64,000 nucleotides of DNA from Neopestalotiopsis rosae (lineage: Eukaryota > Ascomycota > Sordariomycetes > Amphisphaeriales > Sporocadaceae). The notes beneath the pieces were generated by a model. It saw only the letters and a program-made list of their open reading frames with translations, had not been told where the DNA came from and ran no database searches. The stretch spans positions 186,001-250,000 of the forward strand of contig JALGAS010000006.1 of NCBI GenBank assembly GCA_023078685.1, given 5' to 3'. Made by a program: the position numbers and the translations under genes. Numbering within the stretch: position 1 is the stretch's first letter; each line of letters begins with the position of its first letter. Shown piece by piece: positions 6,187-38,139 of the stretch.

Positions 6187-8566
6187 ATGTCGGACGGTAC
6201 GAATGGCCCTGTTGTCATAAATGGCATCAAGCCTGATGATCCTGGTAGGTATCAGGGTTCCTTGACACGTGAGAGTAGCTGTCCGTTGACATTATGTAGC
6301 CAGGCCGCCGGCACGTCTGGAAGTTCGCGACATGATCAAGAACCAACCAGATCAATGGAATCTCTATCTCTTGGGGATGGAGAGGTTCCAGAACTCTGTA
6401 GCGGAGAATGCGCCCCTTTCCTACTTCCAGATCTCAGGTAAGCTCTCACAAACGTGTTCTACTTGGAGTGGGTGAATGTGCTCATATGAGTAGGAATCCA
6501 TGGCTTCCCATACACGAAATGGCCAGACAGAAGCTGGAACACGATGAAGTCAGTCAACGGATCTACTAGTTTTGGTGGTTTCTGTACACACAGCTCAATC
6601 TTGTTTCTTACTTGGCACCGCCCTTACCTTGCCTTGTTTGAAGTAAGGGATTCAAATTTCCCCTCCCTTGGGCCATTCGACTAACACTTCGACAAACTAG
6701 GCCGAGTTATACAAGCATGTCAACGCAGTTGCCAACAGCTTTAGTGACGCTGAACGAAAGTCTGACTATGTCAAGGCAGCGAAGACGTTCCGCATGCCTT
6801 ACTGGGACTGGGCCCGACCAGATCTTCCCATCTTTCCGGCGGAAGCTAGCATCAATGCCAATAACCAGGTCGCCCGGCCCAAGGCGTCTACAAAAGCCCC
6901 CATCAAACCGAATCCATTGGCATCATACAAGTTCAGAGAGTCTGCTAGTGATGGGAACGTCAATTGGGTAGGAAATATATAATCTGCCTTCCACCACAGA
7001 TCATGGTCACTAACCAAGTCTTAGTTCCGGGATGTCAATGCGACTATACGTTTCCCGACTAATGGATCCGGTACCCCCAACGAACAGGCATTGAAGCAGC
7101 AGCTGTCGGCCTTCTTCCAAGGGCAGCAGTCCTCGCCAAAGGGCCGAAACCTGACGGAGCGCGTGCTGTACATTCTGCAGTCCTACACCAACTTTGGTGC
7201 CGCGTCCAACAACCGGTTCGACAGCCAGGCCCTGACGCCCGGGTTCGAGGGCTGGGGCAGCATCGAGGACATCCACAACGCCGTCCACAACTAAGTCGGC
7301 GGCGGCGGCCAGATGGGCTCGCCCGCCGCGGCAGCCTTTGACCCCGTCTTCTGGCTCCACCACACCCAGGTCGACCGCCTCTTCGCCATCTGGCAGGCCC
7401 TGCACGACGACCCCCGCGGCCCCGTGACCTACGTGACCGCCCGCCCCGCCGCCGAGGGCAACTTTTATACCCGCGCCGGCAGCACCGAGTCCGCGACCAC
7501 GCCGCTGCTGCCGTTTGTCCAGCTCCTCGGTGGCAGCCCGACCAGCGGCGCTGGCGGGCAGCAGGGTCAAGGGCAGTTTTGGACGTCCGAGGGCGTCCGC
7601 TCCACCAAGACGTTTGGCTACGTCTACCCCGAGACCCGGGACTGGGTGTTCCCCAAGCGCGAGGACGTTGTTCGTGAGCTCAAGCGCCTCTATCAGAGCG
7701 CCTCGCTGGGCAACATTGTCGCGAGCACCGGGGCCGCGCTTGATGCGTCGGTCAAGAATCTCAAGATTAGGGCCGAGGCACACGTCGCTGCTGCCGCTGC
7801 TACTTCCGCAAAGACCCCGGCCACGGCAAGGCCCAGCAATGGCAACATCCCTGAGATGGCCATACAAGCTGAGAAGGAGCCAGCACAAGTGCCCATTGCC
7901 GCCGCGGCACCAGCGCCAGCAGCGAATTCCGCACCGTCATCTAAGCCCCCCAATGGAGTCGGCAATCGCGACATCAAGAAGCTCATCAGCAGCGACAACA
8001 AGTACCTAGAATGGCTAGTGAACATACGCGCCGAAAAGGCCGAGCTAGACGGCAACTACGTGGTGCACATCTTTCTAGGCGACCCGGACGATACATACCC
8101 GCTGTTGTACCCGACCAACCACGCGCACGTGGGCGTGGTGGCGACTTTCGGGCAGGGCGCCGACACGGCGTGCGAGAACTGTCAAGAGGGGAGGACGCAG
8201 GGTCTCCGCATCACAGGCCAGGTGCCCCTGACCATGGCGCTGGTGGAGCGGTACCTCGCGGGCGGCGACGGCGACGGCTTGGTCGAGAGCCTGGCGCCCG
8301 AGCATGTGGTGCCGTATCTGCAGAAGCATCTGCACTGGCGGGTCACCCAGGCGGACGGCTCGCGCCGGTCGCGCGGGGAGCTCAGCAACTTGCTCGTCAG
8401 CGTCGTTACCTGCGAGGCCACGGTGCCGACGGCTGGTTCGCCGGACTCCGACGGCGGCTGGGTTCGCTATGCCGAGATGGTGGTCCCGCGGCCCGAGGCC
8501 ACGACGAACTGGGCGGGCGGGCCGCGGGGGAGTGGTACTGGGTATGTGGGTGGCGAGGTTGCGTAG
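6187..8566 (+). pseudogene. Tyrosinase (type-3 copper monophenol oxidase) interrupted by one nonsense codon
   Basis: Exons are 6187-6244, 6300-6437, 6494-6642, 6701-6967 and 7025-8566, all with GT/AG borders and consistent phase. The frame spans 717 sense codons, but codon 294 (7292-7294) is TAA. CuA is present: H68, H98 (with C96 two residues before it, as in the Cys-His thioether of fungal tyrosinases) and H107 in TWHRPYLALFE. CuB is split by the stop: H288 and H292 in IHNAVHN lie before it, and the WLHH motif (H316/H317) lies after it. The 7313-8566 part holds the rest of CuB and a C-terminal shielding-type domain. There is no signal peptide, as is usual for intracellular fungal tyrosinases that oxidise monophenols in melanin synthesis. 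The predicted truncated product of 293 aa would lack the third CuB ligand and should be inactive. The 3' exon is clearly more GC-rich than the 5' exons. Confidence 0.88.
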
Positions 8567-8852: not shown

Positions 8853-9601
8853 TCAGTATTTTGAGTATCCAAAATCAGTAGGAGCCCATCGCCGCCGGAC
8901 CTTGCACCTGTCGGGCAACTTGGTGGTTGTCTGTGCTGTGGGCTGCGGTGCTGGCTGCGTAGTCGCAACGAGGGTGGACTTGGGGGTTGTGACAATGTTA
9001 GTGGAAGTCGTTGGCTGATTTACGGCGGTTTTGGCAGTGGTCTGCGCGGCTGGCTGGGTTGCCGCCGGATTTTGGGCCGCAGCTTGCGAGGAAAGTGTTA
9101 GCATAACCGTACATTGAGAGGTGGCTTGTTAAGGGCCTTGAGAAATAACTTGTGAATGAAATCAGCTGCTGTTGCAGGCAACGTACCTTGGGGCGACGAC
9201 TGGGCTGCCGACTGCGTGCTTGGCCGAGCCGACGCCGGTCGAACATGAAATGGAAAGAAGTATTGCAGGATTGACGGGTTGGATTCGAGCAAGATGCGTA
9301 TTCCATATGTATCCAGCTGGCCGAGATTGGTGGGCACAACCCAGTTGTATTGTCCTTGCTGATTATCTACACCCTGCGCAATGTTGCCCAAAATCCACAG
9401 CGTGGCTGGACTTCCGCCGCCGAGCAGCTCCAGAGTAATGGTCCCCTTGTAGCTGGTTGGGTCCCAGACAATCTGAAAGGTCTCTCCAGCGTACACGTCC
9501 TGCCAGTTGGTTGGCTTGCTCATGGGATCAAAGCCCGGTGTCTGAGCCAATGTACCACAGATTCCAAGTAGGAAGAGGGCGAAGATGGTTGAGAAGTGCA
9601 T
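8853..9601 (-). CDS. Secreted Kre9/Knh-like cell-wall protein with Thr/Pro-rich tail
   Basis: Exons are 9187-9601 and 8853-9082 (214 aa); the intron has a GTACGT donor and CAAG acceptor. The ATG at 9601 starts a clear signal peptide (MHFSTIFALFLLGICGTLAQ). The following domain (about 30-120) has the pattern W-x2-V-Y-A-G-E-T-F-x-I-x-W-D-P-T, then G-T-I-T-L-E-L-L, W-I-L-G-N-I-A, Y-N-W-V-V-P and Y-G-I-R-I-L. This matches the fungal Kre9/Knh1-type N-terminal domain of Ser-Thr-rich wall proteins. The C-terminal half is Ala/Gln/Thr/Pro-rich. Unlike many family members it shows no hydrophobic GPI-anchor tail and ends in a basic segment, so it may be freely secreted, or the last exon may be mis-modelled. 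A role in wall beta-1,6-glucan or wall structure is inferred from the family. Confidence 0.8.
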
Positions 9602-10070
9602 ATTGGTGTTTTTGATTTGCAATCTGCGTCGCTACGGTACCGCTTACGTTTCTTTAAATAAGGGCTTCTACAGCGCCTCGCTGATAAGGTCGTATACACT
9701 ACAGCAAGTTGGTGGAAGAGAGCTTGAGATGTAGGGGACCCTGGCCATATGGAACACGTGGAGATGTCGACATCTATGAATTCAAGTCACAAAGCGCTGC
9801 GGAAAGATCTATGGTGATGGCAAATTTCTTTCTTCTCTGCCACTTTCGGGACAAAGATTGGGCTTCCCGGGACAAGCCAGACTGCTATGCAAAGACAAAG
9901 ACTTCATGTATCAGCTTACAACACTCCGTGTCTGTATCGTTCATACTAATTTATTTTTTGAATCTCGAAACAAGATAGAATTAGAGTTCCGTTATTCCAT
10001 GAGCTTCGCGGTGTTGATACTGAGGACTTTGTGTATCTCGACAGGGCATTGTTACCTAGTTTCACCTCAA
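9602..10070. other. Intergenic region with Kre9-like gene promoter
   Basis: It is the upstream region of the minus-strand Kre9-like gene and the 3' side of the F-box gene. A TATTTAAA element (minus strand, 9653-9660) lies about 55 nt from the ATG. Nothing else was recognised. Confidence 0.4.
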
Positions 10071-11782
10071 TTAAGTCGTATCAAAGATTCCATTAACCTT
10101 TCCGAACGAGCGAGCCCAATGAGCTTGGATAGAGGGGCCCGATGCATACGAGATATCTTGCGCATCTGCTTGGCGTTCGATTGCAGAGTAATAGGGGCGC
10201 GGGTAGATCTGTTCACAGTACTCTCTGTGCCGATAGGATATCTCTTCGAGGTCCGAAAGCAGCCAGGTCCGACCAGCGGCAAAGTCCCTCATCAGTGCGA
10301 CAATCGCCTCTGGGTCACACAGAAATCCATCGAAAAGTTCAAGACGCTTCAATGATGAGGGCAGTATGTCCACGAGCCTTGGTACGTTGATATCCCTTGG
10401 CGCGTTATGTTGTTCGAAAGTCGGCAATTCATCGCTGCCCCCAAATATTGCCACTTCGAGCTCAGCATGCTCAAGACGGGTGAAATCCTTCATGTTGGTG
10501 ACAGCGTTCGTTATTCCAAATCGCTTGCAGCGGTCTCCGAACGTGATGGCGAGTTCGGTCAATTGGTGACCGCAATGTTTGGCGACTGTGTCAACAAAGG
10601 CCGCGGCATCCCAGCTGTATTTCCGGTATTCCCTGATTGCGGCCTCCTCATCATCCCGGTGGAATGGTCGGTCGGATGTAGCTATAGGTACATGACTATA
10701 TCTGAAAACACTCAAGCAGGGAGTATGGGCCAATAAAGCTCCGATTGATTCAACGTCCACGTTGGACTCCAATAATTCCAACCTTTGCAGTGGTGAGTCC
10801 AAGTCTGCATAAGGCCAAATGTAGGGGGGTAATGTCGAGATTTCGGCTGTTTCAGCATCACAGTATAGATCTGGATAATGGCTCGTGGTTCGGAGCTTTG
10901 CAAACAAGCTCGTGGCGTGAAATTCTGCAACATTCTTTATTGCGAATAAAGGTGACATTGTCGCAAGAAGTACAGGTAACCCGTGGGATCCAAGCGCTCT
11001 AATGATCTTGCAACGAGCCAATGGCGCGTCGGCTTGTGCTGTGTGAGTATCCCGCATGAAAGTGGTCAAGACCGTCATCAAATGAGATTTGTGTTTGTCC
11101 ATAGCAGCAGCAGCGTCAACTCCATAGCCATCTGCCGTGAATCTTTGTGCGAAGAGCCAATCCGATGGTAAAGTTAACCGGGTGAGATATTTGAGCTGGC
11201 TGATCAAGAGTATTAATGACCAATCCCACTGCCGTCCAGGGAGCCATGAGTCCCAGTGCGGGTCGTTTAGCTGGTCGTTCAGATACCCTGGTTGGCGAAC
11301 TTCCTCGGGAAGAAATGGCAAGCGGTCCAAAAGAGCCTCCACTTGCTGTAGCTTGCCTGTTGACAGCCTATGAACTCGACTTCCCCTGTTGTTATTGTTG
11401 AGCAAGGCGAGCTCAGAAGCTCGAAAGTCTGCGAATCTAGCATACTCGGCAATATATGGATATGCCAAGTTTCTGTAGACTAATGCCCATGACTCCCAAG
11501 GGTGCTGGTCGAGGATAACAAATCTGCTCCATTGTCTTCTGTTTTTGTTATGAGAGGCAAGCCTTGATGTTCCGCAAGCATATATAGCTCTACATGTGAC
11601 CACTAGAAAAAATGCAGGTCAGTAAATGCACCTCATGGATAGAGAAGTAAATGTTCAAAACCGATCCCAGGTGCGTATAAAGTGGCACGTGAAAGCTGCT
11701 TACTGAGATTCTCAAAGTCTGGGGCAGTCGAGAGCTCTAGGATACGACCAAGCAGTTCTGGGGGAAGATCGAGTAGATTCAT
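10071..11782 (-). CDS. F-box-like protein with LRR-like C-terminal region
   Basis: Exons are 11704-11782 and 10071-11602 (536 aa). The first exon encodes MNLLDLPPELLGRILELS, a typical truncated F-box start (L-x-x-L-P-x-E-L). The intron (GTAAGC donor, TTTTTTCTAG acceptor) splits an ATG codon, restoring Met at the start of the second exon. The rest is a long soluble protein with repeated short Leu-rich segments (for example SSLKRLELFDGFL, LQRLELLESNV) that resemble the irregular LRRs of fungal F-box proteins. By family it would be a substrate adaptor of SCF ubiquitin ligases. The substrate is unknown. The F-box is short and the LRR reading is by eye. Confidence 0.7.
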
Positions 11783-12655: not shown

Positions 12656-12856
12656 CAGATTCATCCCATTGACTAAATGCTTCAATTCACTCATCATCTT
12701 CCACCATCAGCTCTTTGCCTACTCTTCTCAGCTCTTGACTACTATTCCAACAGAACAGCACCATACTCGAATATCTATTCACAACCACTGACAGCCTTTT
12801 CTACCTTTCAATCTAGAACATATTCAATCGATCAGAACCCCCATCAATCAGAGAAA

Positions 12857-13708
12857 ATGCGTGCCTTTACTTTTTCCACTATCCTCTTCGCCGCCGCTTC
12901 CCTTGCGGCCCCTTCCCCTCTGAGCTCGGAATTCGTAAGACTATACAAGAAACTATCACAGCAAGGGACTGCGATATACTGACATGGCTACAGTGCAACC
13001 GTCCCGGTCTCTGCGACTTTGAGGATGCCACCGCCCAGGCTCAGTGCATCGCTCAGTGCGAAGCCATCCCCGGCTGGCTGAAGACCAAGAGAAACCCAGA
13101 GCCTCTCTCCTCCAGCTTTGTAAGACCTGAAGACCTCCTATGATCAGAACATGGTTAATATAGAGATTATACGGGTGCTGACACTTTCTACTCAAGTGCA
13201 ACCGCCCCGGTCTTTGCTACTTCCCCGGCGATGCTGCCGCCCAGGCGCAGTGCATTGCGCAGTGCGAGGCCATTCCCGGCTGGTTCAAGGCCAAGAGAAC
13301 CCCCGAGCCTCTTTCCGCCACTTTTGTAAGAGAAAAAAAAAAACCAGCAATATGACATTTTCCGCTTATATCTGAAGAGAGTATCAAGACTGACACTACT
13401 TACTCCTTTTAGTGCCACCGCCCCGGCATCTGTGACTTTGAGGACGCCACTGCCCAGGCTCAGTGCATCGCTCAGTGTGAGGCCATTCCCGGCTGGTTGA
13501 AGCTCAAGCGCAGCCCCGAGCCGCTCTCTTCCGAGTTTGTAAGTATAATTAAAAGAAAAAAAATTCATGCTCTCTCCCCTGTTACTTGCGTCCATTTATG
13601 TGTACAGAGTTAATGACCTGCTCTCTCTAGTGCAACCGTCCTGGTGTCTGTGACTTTGAGGACGCCGCGGCCCAGGCCGACTGCATTGCCTGGTGCGAGG
13701 CCATCTAA
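12857..13708 (+). CDS. Secreted Kex2-processed multi-copy cysteine-rich peptide precursor (four modules)
   Basis: Exons are 12857-12934, 12994-13119, 13197-13325, 13413-13538 and 13631-13708 (178 aa); all four introns are phase 0 and begin GTAAG. Residues 1-17 are a signal peptide. Four modules follow, with Cys at 27/33/44/48 and equivalent positions (C-x5-C-x10-C-x3-C; module 2 has x11) and the shared core QCIAQCEAIPGW. K-x-K-R sites at 56-59, 99-102 and 141-144 separate them. Each module begins with two X-Pro dipeptides: AP-SP, NP-EP, TP-EP and SP-EP, followed by L-S-x-x-F-C. This is the layout of an alpha-factor-type precursor: Kex2 cuts after KR, Kex1 trims the basic residues and a Ste13-like dipeptidyl peptidase could trim X-Pro. 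Four disulfide-bonded peptides of roughly 35-40 residues are predicted. I do not recognise the family; pheromone, effector or antimicrobial roles are all possible. Confidence 0.85.
12908..13708 (+). repeat. Four tandem peptide modules, one per exon boundary
   Basis: The modules start at residues 18, 60, 103 and 145 of the precursor. Modules 1, 3 and 4 are nearly identical in protein but differ at many third codon positions, and module 2 has diverged to C-Y-F-P-G-D in place of C-D-F-E-D. This points to exon duplication followed by purifying selection. The last module lacks the GW-x-K-x-KR tail because the stop codon follows CEAI. Confidence 0.85.
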
Positions 13709-16890: not shown

Positions 16891-17428
16891 ATGCTTCGCA
16901 GTGTTTTCCTCGCTGCCCTGGCCGGAGTGGCCACGGCCATCCTCGATGGTTCCTTCAACGGTACGGGACAGATCCGCGCTCTGGCTCACGGCACCACCAA
17001 CGGCACCGACCTCGGCTGCCTCACGAATGCGGGTCAATGGACTACCACTGAGGACGACTGTGGTGTCTTTACCGGCGACCGAAATGGTGCTACCGGTGTC
17101 TATATCACCTCTGAGTACGGATCCTGTGGCAGAGCCGAAGACAGTGACAGCGTGCTATATTTCAACTGCGCTGAAGATCAAGATGCTCTCGACTTTTGGG
17201 TAAGGAATTTTCTTTATCGGGGGGGCACCGAACTCGAAACAGCATACTGATACTTGTCACCAGGTCTTCGCCGCATACTCCACAAGGGATATTCTAGTGT
17301 ATAGCGAGACCTTTACCTGGTCTAGCTTTTCCACATTTGCCGACGCTGACACGAACAACCTCACGCTCCACGGCTACCGCACCAATGATCCTGAGCCATG
17401 GGTGTGGATGGGCTGGACTTCTCTATAA
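16891..17428 (+). CDS. Small secreted protein, unknown family
   Basis: Exons are 16891-17199 and 17264-17428 (157 aa), with a phase 0 intron of 64 nt (GTAAGG...CACCAG). It starts with a signal peptide (MLRSVFLAALAGVATA). The mature part has four cysteines (in LGCLTN, DDCGVF, GSCGRA and YFNCAED), probably two disulfides, and N-glycosylation sequons NGT (twice) and NLT. It is acidic and rich in Thr, Gly and aromatic residues, ending WVWMGWTSL. I do not recognise the fold. The size and signal peptide fit a secreted effector-like or wall-associated protein. It lies in a stretch with several other secreted-protein genes. Confidence 0.8.
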
Positions 17429-36705: not shown

Positions 36706-38139
36706 CTAACCGATTGGCCAATCGGGTCTGGGCCGCATGGTCTGCCCGAGTCGTCTGTCAGAGTTACGTCGCAAGTATTCTCGCCATTCCGCTTGCTGTC
36801 CTGTCACTTTGGGGGTGGCACGGTGATCCGGGGTGAGAGTTTGCTGAAGATAGTCTGCCACGGCCGGTAAGTTGAAACGATCCCGAATCAAGGTGATCGG
36901 GTTGTATACCCTATTGTCGGGGAAGGCCTCCTTCATTTCAACAGAAGTAAAGAAAGCAGCCTTGTCGTCGTCAGTGGCTCGGCGTGCCCAGTCCACGATT
37001 CCGGCGCAGAGATTCGACCAGTGGATGGCCCACTCCGCGTTGAGACTGCCTGCGCCCTGACGGAACTCAATGGTCTTCTTGTGTTTCTCTACGACATTTG
37101 CAAAGTTGTACACGCCCGTACCGGAGGGGAACATAAGCGTCTTGACGACTGCATTGTCGTACGCCGCCATGAGCTCCATCATGGCCCTCATTACATCGAT
37201 CGCCGTACCATTTGCTATCGCATTATCGGGCGGGGGCCCCCCTCTCGAATCCGGGCGTTGTAAAGTACCATACACCATCTCTTTCGCCTGTTTTGCGCTG
37301 TAGCCCTTTGCAACGACTGCCTTCTCACGTGTGATCCTGTGATACATGTTATCCAACCGCCGATGGATTGGGTGTAATCCTTTGAAGTAGATATCAATGG
37401 CAAATAACGCACTCGCTACCCTCTTCAGGTCATCCTCGGGCCATACGTGGGGGCCATTGCCTACATGGACGTGAAGTCCTGTGGACTCGGGGGTGAGACA
37501 CAAGAACTGGTCCAACAGAATCGCAAGCGCCCGTCTGATCTCATTGTCGCTCTCGTCGTTGTTGGCCAGCAATACTGGAGTAGTGAGTTCAACGTCGGTG
37601 AGTTCAAACTCTGTTTGTGGCGGATCCCAAAGCTGCTCCCATTCCTCTTCCTTCATGTCAGTTGTGATACTGGAGTCGCACACTATACTCCAACGGAGAA
37701 ATCCTGGATGATCTGAGATGGCGGCACGGGGATGGTTAGCATCATCCCCATCGTCATCCTCGTCATCATACACGGTCCCATTGGGCTTGTTGACCTGGAG
37801 TCCGTGGGCCGTGAGGACGTCGTAGACGGCTCTCCGGACCACCGCGTCTGCTCCGGTCCAGGGTCCAACATCCCTGGGTATATGCCCGCGCGCAATCAAC
37901 ACGTAGCCGTCCTGGAGCGTGTACAGCAGCTTATCATCCTCCAGCTTCCTGCCTTCTGTGCCGTCCTCGCTGACATCAAAGCGCCACGGCACGGCAAACT
38001 CAAACTCGACGCCCTTTGTGAGGGGGTGAAATTCTCCCTTTTTTAATCCTGTTTTCGAATCTTTATCTTTGGAAGGCTTTGGGGGAGATTTGCTGCCGAC
38101 CCTGCCGGTGGCTTTGCTTACACTGGCCTTGGTAGCCAT
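36706..38139 (-). CDS. Putative amidoligase (ATP-dependent carboxylate-amine ligase fold)
   Basis: This is a single exon of 477 aa. After a Lys/Ser-rich N-terminus, the motif GVEFEF (43-48) opens the domain. STGLHVHVG (219-227) and TIEFRQGAGSLN (356-367) follow, the conserved Glu/His/Arg signatures of the putative amidoligase family related to glutamine synthetase and gamma-glutamylcysteine ligase folds. These residues would bind ATP and metal. The family joins a carboxylate to an amine. In bacteria many members act in peptide tagging or peptide-modification clusters. The fungal substrate is unknown. No signal peptide is present, so it should be cytosolic. It lies about 2.4 kb from a secreted repeat-peptide precursor, but no link between them is shown. 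Confidence 0.8.
   Translation of the reverse strand: MATKASVSKATGRVGSKSPPKPSKDKDSKTGLKKGEFHPLTKGVEFEFAVPWRFDVSEDGTEGRKLEDDKLLYTLQDGYVLIARGHIPRDVGPWTGADAVVRRAVYDVLTAHGLQVNKPNGTVYDDEDDDGDDANHPRAAISDHPGFLRWSIVCDSSITTDMKEEEWEQLWDPPQTEFELTDVELTTPVLLANNDESDNEIRRALAILLDQFLCLTPESTGLHVHVGNGPHVWPEDDLKRVASALFAIDIYFKGLHPIHRRLDNMYHRITREKAVVAKGYSAKQAKEMVYGTLQRPDSRGGPPPDNAIANGTAIDVMRAMMELMAAYDNAVVKTLMFPSGTGVYNFANVVEKHKKTIEFRQGAGSLNAEWAIHWSNLCAGIVDWARRATDDDKAAFFTSVEMKEAFPDNRVYNPITLIRDRFNLPAVADYLQQTLTPDHRATPKVTGQQAEWREYLRRNSDRRLGQTMRPRPDWPIG

Follow-up and report, generated by a model that had tools for sequence, protein, structure and literature searches.

A five-exon gene of Neopestalotiopsis rosae that very probably encodes a Kex2-processed precursor of four cysteine-rich peptides

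Fungi release families of small peptides from larger secreted precursors, and the locus considered here raises the question of whether a gene made of four similar cysteine-rich units is such a precursor and, if so, what its products might do. It lies on the plus strand at 12857-13708 of the window, by which we mean the whole 64,000-nucleotide stretch of Neopestalotiopsis rosae DNA that was analysed. Stop codons interrupt this interval if it is read unspliced, and after splicing it reads as one gene whose five exons join in a single frame to give a 178-aa precursor. The limits given by the first-pass annotation proved exact to the base, with the start ATG at 12857 and the stop codon ending at 13708 (Table 1). 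GTAAG donors begin all four introns, the acceptors are CAG, AAG, TAG and TAG in order, and a branch-point-like CTGAC motif is found in introns 1-3, where its A stands 11, 15 and 19 nt before the intron end. GC content is 74% at third codon positions versus 37% in introns. The gene model has two weak points, namely the AAG acceptor of intron 2, which is unusual, and intron 4, which lacks CTGAC and has TTAAT alone. A second in-frame ATG is present at 12677, 180 nt upstream of the start at 12857, and the Met at 12857 begins a classical hydrophobic signal by hydropathy. Two imperfect 20-nt tandem copies also lie upstream of the start codon (12707-12747, plus strand).

Table 1. Exons, introns and candidate processing sites of the precursor gene, in window coordinates.
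Feature	Position	Strand	Description
Exon 1	12857..12934	+	signal peptide (first ~17 aa, predicted) and APSP-LSSEF leader of module 1
Intron 1	12935..12993	+	59 nt, phase 0, GTAAG...CTGAC...CAG
Exon 2	12994..13119	+	module 1 (CNRPGLCDFEDATAQAQCIAQCEAIPGWLKTKR) and NPEPLSSSF leader of module 2
Kex2-type site 1	13087..13092	+	KTKR, then NPEP
Intron 2	13120..13196	+	77 nt, phase 0, AAG acceptor
Exon 3	13197..13325	+	module 2, one residue longer (C-x5-C-x11-C-x3-C), and TPEPLSATF leader of module 3
Kex2-type site 2	13293..13298	+	KAKR, then TPEP
Intron 3	13326..13412	+	87 nt, phase 0
Exon 4	13413..13538	+	module 3 and SPEPLSSEF leader of module 4
Kex2-type site 3	13506..13511	+	KLKR, then SPEP
Intron 4	13539..13630	+	92 nt, phase 0, TTAAT only
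Exon 5	13631..13708	+	module 4, ends CEAI-stop, without PGW tail or Kex2 site

The precursor opens with the hydrophobic N-terminus that had been read as a signal peptide, and hydropathy, by which we judged the secretion signal, peaks at 2.04 over residues 8-18. Small residues stand at the presumed signal cut, which we placed by inspection and infer to fall after ...AASLA. Four modules follow, as first described, but to call them near-identical was a little strong, as module-module identity is 76-88% across the six pairs (32-37 of 42 residues in the three full-length pairs). Modules 1, 3 and 4 follow exactly the spacing C-x5-C-x10-C-x3-C that had been attributed to all four, and module 2 departs from it with x11. 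A P-G pair sits inside the Cys loop of each module (4/4), and Tyr occurs in module 2 only (1/4). The K-x-K-R separators were found at all three inter-module boundaries, as claimed, and ahead of every module stands X-P-X-P-L-S-x-x-F, beginning with APSP after the presumed signal cut and with an X-P-E-P form after each KR. To judge from the sequence, the X-P-X-P-L-S stretch reads as a Ste13-type signature.

This anatomy matches that of the Kex2-processed repeat proteins (KEPs) surveyed by Le Marquer 2019 (PMC6339444) and Umemura 2020 (PMC7329392), which share a secretory signal, at least three similar repeats, KR between them and X-P dipeptides after KR. The first survey sets at least three repeats as its criterion and describes an XA/XP signature after KR; here we find a secretion signal by hydropathy, four repeats and a Kex2 site at 3/3 boundaries, and the predicted peptides fall within that survey's 25-50 aa class (PMC6339444). 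What sets this gene apart from the surveyed KEPs is that each module has four cysteines and an exon of its own, and our searches linked its sequence to no named family; neither PMC6339444 nor PMC7329392 uses "intron", "exon" or "disulfide" in its main text. We hold it very probable that 12857-13708 is an intact KEP gene whose precursor is cut into four peptides, each about 30-37 aa long and with two probable disulfides. The Kex2-type layout is well supported by the hydrophobic N-terminus, the four modules, the three K-x-K-R sites and the KR kept in two outside relatives (below), and also by the processing machinery of the genome, where we find one P_proprotein match of kexin type and three DPPIV_N matches, that is, dipeptidyl-peptidase domains.

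Under trimming rules that come from general knowledge and from survey text (PMC6339444), the signal peptide would be removed first and Kex2 would then cut behind each KR, after which a Kex1-type carboxypeptidase would strip the basic tail and a Ste13-type dipeptidyl aminopeptidase would take off two X-P dipeptides. With two disulfides forming per peptide, the outcome would be four peptides of the form LSxxF-C[NH]RPGxC...CIA[QW]CEAI... The predicted trimmed products are 36, 37, 36 and 30 aa long with pI values of 4.18, 6.04, 4.75 and 4.05, a range (4.05-6.04) unlike that of a cationic antimicrobial peptide. Their calculated average masses, leaving aside the loss on disulfide formation, are about 3917, 3922, 3909 and 3236 Da. 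The mature C-terminus of peptide 4 is uncertain because module 4 has no PGW tail. An AF2 model of one module, built from a six-row alignment, is of moderate quality (pLDDT 70.4, pTM 0.39) and carries no information on disulfide partners; it shows two helices, one spanning 12-23, which includes cysteines 3 and 4, and another spanning 28-33.

Exons and peptides do not coincide, because each of exons 2-5 starts with a module's first cysteine, and exons 2-4 each combine the main part of one peptide with the leader belonging to its successor. A separate exon for each module, with all introns in phase 0, suggests that the gene may have grown by exon duplication, and exon skipping could then alter the number of peptides while keeping the frame. 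At the DNA level the repetition appears as a direct repeat of three 133-nt copies, in which the reference copy shares 71% and 83% identity with the other two; the exons repeat and the introns show no clear similarity to one another. The ratio dN/dS is 0.06-0.16 in all six module pairs, values that are rough because there are few synonymous sites (15-28) and synonymous divergence is high. We recognised no Kex2 precursor with one repeat per exon in a non-exhaustive literature search. For SP7 repeats, an intron upstream of the first repeat is described as conserved (PMC11333574), and no mention of one intron per repeat for SP7 was among the matches listed from that source. Six letter strings taken from the modules were not found in the literature searched.

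A sequence search with the module, one of the checks that the first-pass annotation had proposed, returned two relatives with the same apparent exon borders. They came from a module profile search of 5.77 billion sequences, in which 2 proteins among 8 candidates, P0001 and P0002, carry the module (E values 4.7e-25 and 3.1e-23); both are open reading frames from assemblies (database tag lgn). P0001 agrees with module 2 at 39/43 residues, the extra residue included, and with modules 1 and 3 at 35/42, and P0002 agrees with module 1 at 39/40, with module 3 at 37/40 and with P0001 at 35/40. Module, KR and SPEP are all kept in the pair; P0002 is two residues shorter before KR, yet has KR and SPEP. 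Their exon borders look conserved, since both have Gln before the first Cys, as a CAG acceptor would read, and V-S or V-R after the final Phe, as a GT donor would read. Because P0001 is nearest to module 2, with its extra residue, and P0002 to module 1, the module array and the identities of its modules seem older than the split of these fungi, a case that leans mainly on module 2. Within the 53.8-Mb genome, a module search at E <= 10 gave four matches, all of them the gene's own modules, and no further copy or paralogue. Taken with the DNA direct repeat and the two outside relatives, this argues that the module repeat is not a product of chance.

The view that the precursor belongs to no known family held up, with nothing above cut-off in Pfam, PDB or full-length protein searches. 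The whole protein drew five Pfam matches, all sub-threshold, the best being Antimicrobial21 (PF14861, a plant antimicrobial peptide) at E 0.0081. That likeness is weak and spans 14 residues, one C-x3-C among them, and we reject membership at 16.4 bits against the curated gathering score of 27. Six single modules scanned alone matched no Pfam family. Against PDB, the whole sequence met one chain at chance level (9cu4_A, E 1.1), the module profile met none, and Foldseek with the AF2 module model found no fold at E <= 10. A full-length protein search, whose candidates were proteins of about 98-311 aa, retained 0/875 at E <= 1. The protein database includes entries from both Neopestalotiopsis sp. 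37M and Pestalotiopsis fici: the CDC4 open reading frame of the window (52703), which served for taxonomy because a search of the assembly found no 5.8S rRNA, has a counterpart in the former with 100% identity over 99% and one in the latter with 95%. The missing match therefore means that in close relatives the gene is unannotated, outside 98-311 aa, or absent. The collection viral_contigs gave 20 pattern matches and no relative, megablast against a plasmid collection found none, and scanning the window with Rfam and for tRNA genes gave no match.

Having read the gene as a KEP, the next question is what its peptides are for. The functions of KEP-derived peptides are described as largely unknown (PMC9769878). 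We tentatively propose that the products act as a secreted peptide signal on fungal cells, which we regard as the most likely function even if the chances fall somewhat short of even. This is slightly favoured over an effector role because of the XA/XP-after-KR signature and because dN/dS among the four copies is low. An effector facing the host or a competitor, in which small cysteine-rich secreted peptides are made in four copies for dose and act on plant or microbial neighbours, is a serious contender at roughly one chance in three. The product is cysteine-rich and secreted-looking, few relatives were found, and time courses of infection by two plant pathogens showed differential expression of 6/9 and 4/5 KEP genes (PMC6339444). 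Yet the low dN/dS between modules is without the diversity expected in an arms race, and the genome search at E <= 10 brought up no paralogue. If the peptides did prove to be effectors, they would represent a multi-copy peptide delivered via the pheromone maturation route. A four-cysteine KEP with one module per exon, low dN/dS between modules and no match among the database proteins of close relatives is a well-defined subject for peptidomics and gene deletion.

A more specific version of signalling is that the gene is a remodelled alpha-type pheromone acting via Ste2, in which FC[NH]RPG[LIV]C corresponds to the [WF]C-x-x-P-G-Q-x-C core less one residue, with a helix and a second Cys pair added. 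As in precursors of the ppg1 / CCG-4 type, there are Kex2 and Ste13-type signatures around each repeat and a Cys loop with P-G and C-x-R-P-G, and KR is followed by two X-P dipeptides at 3/3 sites, with APSP after the presumed signal cut. One survey ties XA/XP after KR generally to alpha-pheromones in Ascomycota (PMC6339444), but describes the dipeptide signature also in KEPs of Basidiomycota and Rhizophagus. Among Sclerotiniaceae a WCGRPGQPC repeat is reported in 31/36 (PMC10569646), Xylona carries RFCHLPGQGCSK (PMC6339444), and a central glycine with a beta turn is usual in alpha-pheromones (PMC13037118). The genome has one STE2 match. Against these stand a predicted length of 30-37 aa, about three times that of a pheromone (9-12 aa in PMC13037118, 9-24 aa in PMC6339444), C-x5-C in place of C-x6-C, the lack of GQ and Trp, and two extra cysteines, the second Cys pair lying in a predicted helix; and three common residues (RPG) could be shared by chance. 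Membership of the alpha-pheromones thus fails on length, on C-x5-C and on the missing GQ core, and in this the earlier statement that the repeats do not match those pheromones was right. As a contrast it was too sharp, because two features recall pheromones, the C-x-R-P-G-x-C loop and the dipeptides that follow each KR. We consider the remodelled pheromone unlikely. Bolder, and a shade more doubtful still, is the idea that this lineage rebuilt its alpha-pheromone as a short C-x-R-P-G-x-C loop with a disulfide-clamped helix, that splicing of one module per exon can set the dose and that the canonical pheromone has been replaced. Were it a pheromone, the gene would show how far a Ste2 ligand can drift.

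Whether a canonical pheromone persists elsewhere in the genome bears on this idea. Five patterns were searched there, and all matched more often than their reversed controls. WC-x3-G-x2-CW gave 6 matches versus 4 in the control, one per locus and three with a stop inside the motif, and WC-x3-GQ-x-C gave 8 versus 1, each solitary when translated. With a looser first codon there were 60 versus 20, and inspection of their positions by eye found no two within 5 kb on one strand. A further exact pattern gave 95 versus 41 with two close pairs, both of which we rejected: the pair on contig C12, separated by 309 bases, is an out-of-frame reading of a Gly/Ala-rich protein, and the pair on C15 has a TAG in frame. 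The loosest pattern gave 380 versus 127, the first 100 of the 380 being listed. No repeated canonical motif was seen in these exact-pattern searches, which suggests that a canonical alpha-pheromone is absent from the genome and would favour a remodelled one, but exact patterns would miss a pheromone that had diverged or was present in a single copy.

It is also conceivable that the protein is never processed, the KR pairs being incidental and the four modules forming one multidomain protein. The regular module spacing would suit such a protein, and the released peptides are only predicted here; however, KR with X-P-E-P behind it is retained in all three linkers and in both relatives despite varying linker length, and we judge this distinctly improbable.

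Least probable is an ustiloxin-type (dikaritin) cyclic peptide precursor modified by a nearby tyrosinase, which we reject because, for all its Kex2-cut repeats and a tyrosinase about 4.3 kb upstream (7313-8566), the gene, unlike dikaritin precursors, has no conserved Tyr core (Tyr in 1/4 modules) and no UstYa nearby, a part of the ustiloxin-type pathway (PMC6339444), with 0/78 of the genome's UstYa matches in the window and the nearest on the contig about 806 kb past its end, and because a Kre9/KNH protein and an unrelated 510-aa open reading frame lie between tyrosinase and peptide gene.

Several neighbours can be described in their own right. The feature at 7313-8566 (plus strand) is a tyrosinase end, matching PF18132 together with the final 29 positions of PF00264, and the open reading frames just upstream of it (6642-6968 and 7025-7291) have no Pfam match. 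The Kre9/KNH-like secreted protein (PF10342) is at 9098-9631 on the minus strand. Adjoining the peptide gene, the 510-aa open reading frame at 10071-11603 (minus strand) looks F-box/LRR-like by eye only and has no Pfam match at E 0.001. Genome-wide, the 78 UstYa (PF11807) matches, counted at exon level, include a dense group at C12:2344974-2368023, and the fungus seems rich in UstYa genes. On the other side of the peptide gene, 16891-17250 (plus strand) holds a small secreted-looking open reading frame that, scanned as a single open reading frame, matches PF25488, the RNase T2-like C-terminal domain, at 29.2 bits where the cut-off is 27, and a 477-aa open reading frame at 36706-38139 (minus strand) has a putative amidoligase domain (PF12224).
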